Source: Bacteroidota bacterium
GTDB taxonomy: Bacteria; Bacteroidota; Bacteroidia; Chitinophagales; Saprospiraceae
Assembly (NCBI GenBank): GCA_017857395.1
Contig: JAFMDF010000001.1
Location: 1-64,000 of the forward strand
DNA: 64,000 bases
Direction: 5' to 3'
The notes under the pieces are model-generated. The model was not told the origin of the DNA, ran no database searches, and saw only the letters and a program-made list of their open reading frames with translations. A program made the position numbers and the translations under genes. This document shows, in pieces, positions 54,739-57,114 of this stretch; positions within the stretch are counted from its first letter, which is position 1, and the number at the start of each line of letters is the position of its first letter.

Positions 54739-57114
54739 TTATTGAACAACTAATTTTCCCGTAATAGTCTTTGCCTCTCCCACCAACTGAAAATAATAAA
54801 CACCATTTACCAATTCTTCTCTATTAATTTCCACACTTTCTACCTTAATTCGCTCCACTCGTTTTATTGTTCGCCCTGCCAAATCATTAATCAATAAAGT
54901 ATAATTATCCCGATTCGGATTGATAAAAGATATAGTTGTTGTTTGACTAAAAGGATTGGGTTGAATTTTTACAGCAGTACTTTGAACTAGATCTTCTGTA
55001 TTCGTCAGAATAGCAGCAATACAGTTTCCTAACACGCTTGTATTAACTTGTTGGTAACTTCTGTTAATGATATCGCCAATGCTTTCTATACAAACAAAAT
55101 CATCATTATATTCAGTAAAATGAACTCGTAATAGCGATTCTAAGCCTCTTGATTTTTCAATGGTAGAGTCTTGCAAAGATAATCCAAGAATTTCTCCAGT
55201 TGCCATATTGGCTTGTAACATCACAGGGAATTTTTGAATATCTACTAAACTTTCTACCGCTTGAATTTGTACCCCTTTTAAGGTAAATTGAAAACCTACA
55301 ATTTCAGAATCTGGGTTTCGGATGGCAATATCCACATATTTCTGAACAGGATTGACCAGATTAATCACCAAATTGACTTCTTCATTGGTATTTAATATCC
55401 CATAAGGAAAATCACAATGACTATGAATTTCATTACTTGGGTGTAAATGTCCTTGTTCAAAATTGACACAATCAGATAATAACGCCGCATCATAAACAGT
55501 GAGTCGTTCATCTCCATTCAGATCATTACAAGGTGTAGCAATTATTTCTTCATCTAAAATAGCAGAGATATAAGATTGGACATCTGCTTTGTCTTGTGCC
55601 CTACTATTATTCACATCCCCCATCAATGCAGTACCGCCACAAACGCCTTCACAGTCTGCTAATACGCTTCCATAAAGTGTGCCTTCACAATCTGCAAATA
55701 TTGGGCAATCTTCATTTAGTGTTACGACTAACTTGCCTGATGAGCGGTCTAAATTCATGCAAACTTGCGCCCAATTATTATCTAGATTTTTTTCTACTCT
55801 GCCTAAGGCGTCAGGCTGATTATTCCAATTAATTCTAGTGATAAATGTAATATCTCCATCAGGTATATCCGTTACATCTATCCATTGACAATCTAAGTTT
55901 GACCCATATTCATCATAACATCCTACTGATAAACCCATATTAGCACAGCCATATTTATTATTGCCGGTTGGACAACCTAAATCTATGACGCAAAATCCAC
56001 TTTTAAAGCCACTAGGAATTTTATTCCCATTAGCATCAAATAATAAATACTCTGCATAGTTTTCGTAATGAAAATGATTATGGCAGTTATCAAATACAAA
56101 TTGCTCATTATTTAAAGCTGGTTGACCGATGTAATAATCTAATTCTCCAATATTTTCAAAACGAGTAGTAAATCGAATAATGTCTCTCCAACCTGTTCCT
56201 TTCAAACAGCCCTCTTCAATCCAGCATTCATCTTCGGTGTAAATACTGTCTAATTCGATACTTGAAAATAAAATATCCTGTCTTACTGCCAAGTCTGGTC
56301 CATTTGGACACAATGGATCTCCTTGTGGCCGACAGGAACCATCATCAATTGTTGCTAGTGGATTATAATTGCAAGAATTTCGGTCCATACAACCAATGAC
56401 TGGTCCTTGATAATCTATCGAAAAATTAATAACATCGCCACAATCTCCATCTGTATCTGAAATTCTAATTAGATAAGGGACCTCTGCATTTAGAAAGGCA
56501 TTCACTACGGCTTGAAAACCACAATTACCAGAATTATCATCAAAAAAGATAAAGCCTTCTAGCCCTCCAGGTATAAAACTTTCGCAACGATCATATACCC
56601 AAATACGTGTATCACATTCATTCACATCACAAGTAGAAATAGTGTACGTCCCAATAGAATCTGGTGTAAAACTATACCAACTATCTCTTTGTCGAGCTTG
56701 ATAGGTACCTTGTGTAACCTCGACTGCTTGGGAACAAGAAGTACCTGGTTGACAATTAACTTCAAAAGATTTACTCAACCCAAATTGGCTTTCTTGTAAC
56801 ACTAAAGAATCGCTTACATAAATTTCAAAACCACCTCCTTCTACAATCCCATCTCCAAAACCATCAAATATGGTAAAGGTCAAGCACTCAAAAATACCTA
56901 CACAAAAGGTATCTAAAAATATTTCTTTTTGGAAGTAAGCATCTTTATCCACCATGGTATAAATAGAATCTCCTGAACCTAAAGTCCAAGAATTTTCTGC
57001 CCATTTATCTGTTTCAACTCGTAAGACAACCATCACTTTATCATCTGAACAGGTTTGGCTATAGATGTTCGAAAAAAAGAAAAGACCAATAAGTACTAGT
57101 AAATATTTTCTCAT
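54739..57114 (-). CDS. T9SS-exported lysyl-oxidase-like protein with dockerin-like loops
   Basis: A 791-residue secreted protein with signal peptide 1-20. Residues ~130-235 are beta-rich. At 241-261 is the motif GCMDRNSCNY...IDDGSC common in marine Bacteroidota. Residues ~272-460 match lysyl oxidase: copper ligands H345, H347 and H349 in CHNHFHYENY; K371 in GFKSGFC and Y403 in CYDEYGSNLDCQW at the positions of the LTQ cofactor lysine and tyrosine. At 498-551 are two calcium-loop repeats (DVNNSRAQDKAD and DLNGDERLTVYD) that look like a type I dockerin. The C-terminus (NPFSQTTTISF to TGKLVVQ) is a T9SS sorting domain. Predicted role: copper-dependent oxidation of peptidyl lysine outside the cell. 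Confidence 0.85.
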   Translation of the reverse strand: MRKYLLVLIGLFFFSNIYSQTCSDDKVMVVLRVETDKWAENSWTLGSGDSIYTMVDKDAYFQKEIFLDTFCVGIFECLTFTIFDGFGDGIVEGGGFEIYVSDSLVLQESQFGLSKSFEVNCQPGTSCSQAVEVTQGTYQARQRDSWYSFTPDSIGTYTISTCDVNECDTRIWVYDRCESFIPGGLEGFIFFDDNSGNCGFQAVVNAFLNAEVPYLIRISDTDGDCGDVINFSIDYQGPVIGCMDRNSCNYNPLATIDDGSCRPQGDPLCPNGPDLAVRQDILFSSIELDSIYTEDECWIEEGCLKGTGWRDIIRFTTRFENIGELDYYIGQPALNNEQFVFDNCHNHFHYENYAEYLLFDANGNKIPSGFKSGFCVIDLGCPTGNNKYGCANMGLSVGCYDEYGSNLDCQWIDVTDIPDGDITFITRINWNNQPDALGRVEKNLDNNWAQVCMNLDRSSGKLVVTLNEDCPIFADCEGTLYGSVLADCEGVCGGTALMGDVNNSRAQDKADVQSYISAILDEEIIATPCNDLNGDERLTVYDAALLSDCVNFEQGHLHPSNEIHSHCDFPYGILNTNEEVNLVINLVNPVQKYVDIAIRNPDSEIVGFQFTLKGVQIQAVESLVDIQKFPVMLQANMATGEILGLSLQDSTIEKSRGLESLLRVHFTEYNDDFVCIESIGDIINRSYQQVNTSVLGNCIAAILTNTEDLVQSTAVKIQPNPFSQTTTISFINPNRDNYTLLINDLAGRTIKRVERIKVESVEINREELVNGVYYFQLVGEAKTITGKLVVQ

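Follow-up and report, generated by a model that had tools for sequence, protein, structure and literature searches.

A predicted surface-exported lysyl oxidase with a dockerin and a cohesin-like domain in Saprospiraceae

What might a lysyl oxidase do for a bacterium, and what does it mean that the enzyme carries modules otherwise associated with cellulosomes? Animal lysyl oxidase (LOX) is a copper enzyme that cross-links collagen, and cellulosomes are held together by a clip made of two halves, dockerin and cohesin. Parts resembling all three meet in one open reading frame (ORF), 54739-57114, of the window, a stretch of 64,000 nucleotides from a genome of the family Saprospiraceae (Bacteroidota). 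The product of this ORF is most likely a surface-exported peptidyl-lysine oxidase. Its homology, its order of domains and its sorting tail can be read directly from profiles, alignments and structural models; its chemistry, its substrate and the work of its dockerin and cohesin-like domains have to be argued from them.

Domain build, catalytic residues and export

The ORF was described from its translation, from profile matches and from a full-length AlphaFold2 model (mean pLDDT 83.6, pTM 0.61). Conservation was read from an alignment (A2) of the window protein with 50 of the best 80 LOX loci found on named genome contigs, which are 35-78% identical to the window protein; these 51 sequences are the family members referred to below. 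The resulting features are listed in Table 1.

Table 1. Features of the lysyl oxidase gene and its product (coordinates are positions in the window)
Feature	Residues	Coordinates	Strand	Basis
Whole gene, 791 aa, ATG start, intact		54739..57114	-	ORF translation, profile matches, model
Order of parts: signal peptide, N-terminal domain, PPC-type fold, Cys-rich stretch, LOX, dockerin, cohesin-like, T9SS tail		54739..57114	-	
Sec-type signal peptide (predicted)	1-20	57055..57114	-	By eye; helix 2-15 in model
N-terminal beta domain, conserved in family	22-119	56758..57051	-	Alignment HMM: 78/79 named ORFs
PPC / ColG collagen-binding-type fold	121-235	56410..56754	-	5iku, 5sv5
Cys-rich stretch GCMDRNSCNYNP..DDGSC	239-266	56317..56400	-	Alignment; 78/79 named ORFs
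Lysyl oxidase domain	271-480	55675..56304	-	Pfam, LOXL2 alignment, fold
Copper ligands HNHFH	345-349	56068..56082	-	LOXL2 alignment; 51/51 members
LTQ lysine K371	371	56002..56004	-	LOXL2 alignment; 51/51 members
LTQ tyrosine Y403	403	55906..55908	-	LOXL2 alignment; 51/51 members
Dockerin type I domain	496-556	55447..55629	-	Dockerin_1 slices, PDB profile search, loop conservation
Calcium loop 1	500-511	55582..55617	-	Ligand conservation in alignment
Calcium loop 2	531-542	55489..55524	-	Ligand conservation in alignment
His-rich linker, invariant Cys567	549-570	55405..55470	-	Three or more His in 43/51 members
Cohesin-like beta-sandwich	574-704	55003..55395	-	Fold only, without sequence match
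T9SS type A sorting domain	718-791	54742..54963	-	Pfam, TIGR04183, 8qb1 fold

Lysyl oxidase homology is clear at the level of sequence. Pfam Lysyl_oxidase (PF01186) matches residues 308-456 (E 2e-30; 106.4 bits, cut-off 20.4), and the ORF is the sole LOX match at E <= 0.001 in the host's 10.15 Mb genome. A phmmer search of the PDB returns one strong match, human LOXL2 (5ze3, E 6.1e-25), and this alignment pairs up the HxHxH motif, both LTQ residues (lysine and tyrosine) and eight cysteines. The same residues are invariant in the family: H345, H347, H349, K371 and Y403 are identical in 51/51 aligned members, and so are C297, C303, C344, C375, C381, C390, C399 and C409. An earlier note on this DNA had named the three histidines, the lysine and the tyrosine as conserved, with correct numbering, and had counted a missing fold match to LOX among the outcomes that would speak against its reading. 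The match was found: the model of residues 271-480 superposes on 5ze3 with Z 19.9 and rmsd 3.2 over 190 residues, and Foldseek agrees on the fold (E 6.4e-14). In the N-terminal half, structure alignment of the model matches residues 121-235 to the collagen-binding domain of ColG (5iku: Z 11.8, rmsd 2.7, 103 residues) and to the PPC domain 5sv5 (Z 10.4). This PPC-type fold, the N-terminal domain (residues ~22-119), the Cys-rich stretch and the cohesin-like domain had gone unmentioned in the earlier note.

The comparison with animal LOX, represented by human LOXL2 (5ze3), shows both kinship and divergence. Shared are the fold, the copper histidines, the LTQ residues and the eight cysteines, as well as a multidomain, exported build. 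Unlike LOXL2, the product of the ORF has no SRCR domains and carries dockerin, cohesin-like, PPC-type and T9SS parts. Excerpts of a 2015 survey describe an extra histidine before the motif as typical of animal LOX (PMC4448552); it is absent from the window protein, which reads FDNCHNHFH. The prokaryotic LOX treated in excerpts of that survey and of a later study keep the catalytic residues (PMC4448552, PMC6452851), as the window protein does, and the archaeal LOX of Haloterrigena turkmenica is described in excerpts of the latter as active when refolded with copper (PMC6452851). Because conservation of the residues is complete and an archaeal LOX is active, copper- and LTQ-dependent catalysis by the window protein, including formation of the cofactor itself, is likely.

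Export is equally well marked. The type A sorting model of the type IX secretion system (T9SS), TIGR04183 of NCBIfam, scores 34.9 bits against a cut-off of 23 and is matched at E <= 0.001 in 51/51 family members, which bears out the T9SS tail proposed in the earlier note, and Pfam Por_Secre_tail covers residues 719-790 (E 3e-8). Residues 713-791 resemble the C-terminal domain of mirolase (8qb1: Z 11.8, rmsd 1.7, 77 residues), a T9SS type A cargo with the same kind of C-terminal sorting domain. The window protein differs from such known cargo in being a lysyl oxidase, for which NCBIfam gives no model at E <= 0.001 in any of the 51 family members. SprA, part of the T9SS machine, is present in the host's genome (SprA_N, E 7.8e-133). 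Passage through Sec and then T9SS is a well-supported prediction from these signals; the two systems would carry the protein out, and it would work on or near the cell surface, where it may be retained.

The dockerin and the cohesin-like domain

Between the oxidase and the sorting tail lie two domains that have to be judged by different kinds of evidence. The first is a dockerin. The two type I calcium loops that the earlier note had seen are real, their ligand aspartates being kept in 50-51 of 51 members: D500, D511 and D531 are identical in 51/51, D535 and D542 in 50/51 each. Pfam Dockerin_1 (cut-off 22.9 bits) scores 12.8 on the whole protein (16.3 in the genome search) and 23.1 on the isolated slice of the window protein, and it matches 47/51 family slices at E <= 1 (best 5.2e-10). 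A PDB search with a profile built from the dockerin slices retrieves dockerins of cellulosomes (1daq, E 6.1e-4; 2mte, E 6.8e-4). Given the Dockerin_1 matches across the family and these PDB profile matches, the slice 496-556 can be filed as a dockerin-type domain. It shares its two calcium loops with the type I cellulosomal dockerins (CelS, 1daq, 2mte), to which the profile matches at about E 6e-4. It differs from them in sitting on a Bacteroidota oxidase, in having its own cohesin fold in the same chain and in a conserved Cys pair, C529/C549.

The second domain is recognised by its shape. In the full-length model, residues ~574-704 match cohesins (6kgf: Z 11.5, rmsd 2.8, 123 residues; 2vn5 and 1ohz tied). 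A separate model of residues 496-702, covering the dockerin and the cohesin-like domain, reaches pLDDT 92.4 and pTM 0.89, as against a pTM of 0.61 for the whole protein. Judged by their titles, the first 37 rows of the VIA list for this model are all structures that bear a cohesin (Z 11.5 to 8.7), rank 38 is a glycosidase that ties with the last of them, and Foldseek likewise points to cohesins (3kcp and 2ccl, E 8.8e-6). Sequence profiles do not follow: the Pfam cohesin family PF00963 is matched by 0/51 family slices at E <= 1, and a PDB search with the cohesin slice gives nothing relevant (best E 0.022). Since the fold matches without a sequence-profile match, residues 574-704 are called cohesin-like, by modelled fold only, and not a member of PF00963. 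Homology between this domain and the Pfam cohesins of the same genome was considered and rejected, hhalign giving a probability of 5.4 against a profile of 21 of them.

Non-cellulosomal cohesins and dockerins were reportedly surveyed in 2009. Structures of such cohesins, from C. perfringens (2jh2, 2w1n, 2vo8) and Archaeoglobus (2xdh), share the fold of the window domain with Z 11.5 to 10.5. They differ from it in that their titles name no LOX, and in that the window family is too distant for the Pfam cohesin model.

With a pTM of 0.89 across two domains, the predictor is confident of their mutual placement, and from this value alone we infer that the dockerin and the cohesin-like domain pack on each other within one molecule. 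On the model, such intramolecular packing is the first choice over assembly with other exported proteins and over a stalk. The two domains would then form a calcium-stabilised pair and be part of the enzyme's own body, set between the oxidase and the T9SS tail.

Occurrence and architecture among relatives

How common is this enzyme? The earlier note had spoken of scattered bacterial members, a description that holds across the phylum, where a draw of 395 genomes contains LOX in four (the host's own genome, one other strong match and two weak ones), but fails within the host's family. There, LOX is matched at E <= 0.001 in 61/199 Saprospiraceae genomes, in 53 of these 61 with E below 1e-20, and contigs of named genomes hold at least 587 LOX stretches, at least 542 of them confirmed. 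The best 80 of these confirmed stretches form the named-locus set. Nearly all are Bacteroidota by title, and they include strains of Phaeodactylibacter luteus (L071) and P. xiamenensis (L075); the closest among the matches listed, two Saprospiraceae MAGs (L060, L061), are 82-83% identical over the LOX domain.

Architecture was scanned with HMMs built from slices of alignment A2. One of the best 80 named loci (L095) has no LOX ORF, which leaves ORFs from 79; LOX is followed by dockerin and then by cohesin in 79/79, and the order holds in 29/29 named ORFs outside the set used for building the HMMs, although these loci are the closest relatives and the uniformity may be overstated. A T9SS tail is detected in 71/79. 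All eight ORFs without a detected tail keep dockerin and cohesin; two of them (L094, L134) run off the contig end and six are not cut.

A wider view shows that the pair can be missing. Of 31 further LOX loci (one from the host and 30 from relatives), 23 carry both modules and eight lack the pair, ten short loci having been refetched at greater length and rescanned. Seven of these eight reach a T9SS tail of their own with no dockerin or cohesin match on the way, and one (L017/L175) is cut. In L005 and L012 the pair is kept, and the longer stretches show the T9SS tail much further on. In a LOX tree of 96/110 rows (duplicates and rows under 150 aa excluded), the eight loci without the pair form one group (support 99/91) next to rows in which both modules are present. 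Given this placement, a single loss of the dockerin-cohesin pair in the sister class is a fair reading; since the root was placed at the midpoint, there may instead have been a single gain elsewhere. Since the sister class has a T9SS tail and no pair, not every exported LOX requires these two modules.

Prokaryotic LOX from Bacteroidetes, Actinobacteria and other groups were reported in 2015, and excerpts of that survey describe all but three as simple, made of the LOX domain alone (PMC4448552). Against these mostly single-domain proteins, the window family has a fixed build with dockerin, cohesin-like domain and T9SS tail. What the present analysis adds to the 2015 picture is this fixed multidomain build, its frequency in one family and a scaffoldin-like protein in the same genome. 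Among the titles that a literature search in an incomplete library listed, none describes a LOX with dockerin or cohesin. The functions of prokaryotic LOX homologues are called enigmatic in excerpts of the archaeal study (PMC6452851); a family of proteins of about 800 aa, in which dockerin and cohesin form a fixed pair ahead of a T9SS tail, offers a concrete system for the role of LOX outside animals.

Candidate roles and genomic setting

The preferred explanation is a copper- and LTQ-dependent LOX, exported by Sec and T9SS, that cross-links surface or matrix proteins and whose dockerin-cohesin pair is packed on itself in the chain; we give this whole about an even chance of being right. On this view the LOX domain would convert primary amines, those of exposed lysines or the like, into aldehydes, and surface or matrix proteins would become cross-linked through these. 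Lysines of surface proteins are a first guess at the substrate. Collagen, taken as a general LOX substrate, was tried and rejected: collagen-like proteins occur in 20/61 LOX genomes and in 54/138 others (p 0.43). In the host's genome four ORFs contain 21 collagen-repeat places between them, and the LOX of this genome could still use these proteins.

A different role for the pair follows if the dockerin is a true docking tag, as the earlier note had proposed in saying that it holds the enzyme in an assembly. The tag would bind cohesins of other exported proteins, and other dockerins would attach to the cohesin of the enzyme itself; LOX would in this way sit in a cellulosome-like surface complex, much as C. 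perfringens enzymes bearing cohesin and dockerin bind through them. Searching the genome for cohesins, which that note had also put forward, gave a positive result: 35 cohesin places at E <= 10, 25 of them over the cut-off, and 53 dockerin places at E <= 1, 37 of them over the cut-off. The genome contains a scaffoldin-like ORF of 1806 aa with 7 cohesins, 7 SprB repeats and a CHU_C tail; its neighbour, a protein of 263 aa, bears a cohesin and a T9SS tail. Assembly through the 7-cohesin protein is possible, and the intact ligands in both calcium loops of the LOX dockerin speak for docking. The assembly claim is only one option: the LOX dockerin is followed by a cohesin fold in its own chain, and the model places the two confidently in a single arrangement. 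Clostridial dockerins, moreover, have a serine-threonine pair in their calcium loops, and the LOX dockerin reads KA and VY at the matching positions.

Comparison across genomes also weakens docking. The clip modules of cellulosomes have here been placed in an oxidase in a bacterial family with cohesins in 187/199 genomes (185 over the cut-off), and cohesins do not track LOX, being present in 57/61 LOX genomes and 130/138 others. As almost all genomes of the family contain them, whether LOX is there or not, their presence is no proof that they bind the LOX protein, and it was set aside as uninformative. Of seven genomes with at least three cohesin matches in one ORF, six have LOX (p 0.004 over 199 genomes), in a count made by eye and post hoc among the matches listed down to E 2.9e-11. 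LOX is commoner in large genomes, however (32/57 of those of 6 Mb or more, 29/142 of the others), and among the 57 large genomes p rises to 0.12; this link was therefore rejected as size-confounded and post hoc. On balance the docking tag is unlikely.

A bolder picture is that of a covalent surface protein matrix. T9SS would export multi-cohesin scaffolds of the SprB type together with dockerin-bearing proteins, dockerin-cohesin contacts would place LOX among them, and LOX would lock the network by lysine-derived cross-links. If true, such a cross-linked matrix would be a bacterial counterpart of the animal extracellular matrix, independent of collagen, but this is highly speculative and we think it probably wrong.

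The preferred reading, in which the enzyme acts on surface proteins, also has to be weighed against a broad amine oxidase. This would gain nitrogen from free amines, or make hydrogen peroxide and disarm amine-bearing antibiotics, with cross-linking as a side effect. Excerpts of its description present the archaeal LOX as an enzyme that accepts many primary amines, shows no preference for one substrate and acts on aminoglycosides and polymyxin, and they call its native role cryptic (PMC6452851). In the window protein, however, calcium-binding and binding-type folds are built into a large multidomain chain that ends in a T9SS tail, which hints at a target in protein or matrix, and both the catalytic set and the eight cysteines of the LOX domain agree with LOXL2. 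A general amine oxidase is accordingly improbable here.

That the pair is a mere stalk, a local form of a C-terminal module common on the genome's T9SS proteins and with no role in catalysis or assembly, is very doubtful: 13 dockerins of the genome are indeed followed by a recognised cohesin at 187-298 nt, mostly in large ORFs (counted over 33/35 cohesin and 45/53 dockerin places, the weakest left out), but these modules have a degenerate first calcium loop, and none of their ORFs shows the strict two-loop pattern; a long SWRFV...KIGDVN link follows, which is absent from the LOX version. By hhalign the LOX cohesin shows no profile match to the genome's cohesins, and LOX keeps the pair in the six uncut ORFs without a detected T9SS tail.

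The neighbourhood was compared over the window and 79 loci, many of them on short contigs, and no operon partner or widely shared flanking gene was found among them. Within the 18 largest neighbour clusters, those that hold a neighbour from the window cover at most four loci including the window, and the commonest covers 11. Cohesin-related genes have been noted in a Saprospiraceae MAG, MAG096, in excerpts of a published study (PMC8547425). Locus L089 bears the isolate name MAG.096.

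Cohesin-bearing and collagen-like ORFs of the source genome

A C-terminal module recurs in large ORFs of the genome from which the window derives (loci L140, L141 and L143-L152). In it, a dockerin-like stretch, in which the first loop is degenerate, is followed by an SWRFV...KIGDVN link, a cohesin and a T9SS-like tail. The 13 dockerin-cohesin pairs of this module are spaced by 187-298 nt. The same genome encodes a scaffoldin-like ORF that adjoins a single-cohesin protein (locus L142; see table). At least three strong cohesin matches per ORF also occur, among the matches listed, in the family genomes G030, G037, G062, G093, G107 and G196. 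In the collagen-like ORFs at L160 and L162, the runs of Gly-X-Y repeats are interrupted by Cys-bounded, calcium-loop-like inserts, e.g. CWDLNGNNVPDIATEDTNGDGNVNILDC.

Features located in the window and in the source genome
Feature	Position	Strand	Remarks
His-rich linker, invariant Cys	window 55405-55470	-	between dockerin and cohesin of the window protein
Scaffoldin-like ORF, 1806 aa	L142:113-5530	-	contig C250; 7 cohesins, 7 SprB repeats, CHU_C T9SS tail
Single-cohesin protein, 263 aa	L142:6033-6821	-	contig C250; T9SS tail
Collagen-like ORF	L160		contig C229
Collagen-like ORF	L162		contig C556

Possible metal links

The His-rich linker of the window protein, which carries at least three His in 43 of the 51 aligned family members, might bind metal. 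At L100 and three other loci, which form a four-locus cluster, the same-strand gene two upstream of the lysyl oxidase (LOX) gene reads in translation as a metal-ABC-transporter binding protein-like gene, possibly serving metal supply.

A second LOX class and further LOX-profile matches

In a second class (L002, L003, L004, L006, L008, L009, L010 and L017), LOX lies close to the N-terminus and a T9SS tail is present in the seven members that are complete, L017/L175 being cut; at least five members carry a copy of the window protein's N-terminal domain after LOX. No dockerin or cohesin match occurs in this class, including its extended stretches (L166-L170, L173-L175). Some family genomes bear low-scoring LOX-profile matches (about 20-39 bits; e.g. 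G114:C244, G003:C41, G146:C36) in several copies each, many spanning only profile positions 128-200, the C-terminal third; they are perhaps LOX-like domains lacking the copper motif. In the LOX tree, the genes from a contig titled Euryarchaeota archaeon (L123) and a MAG titled Chryseobacterium gleum (L121) cluster with Flavobacteriales rows, and both records are probably misnamed or misbinned.
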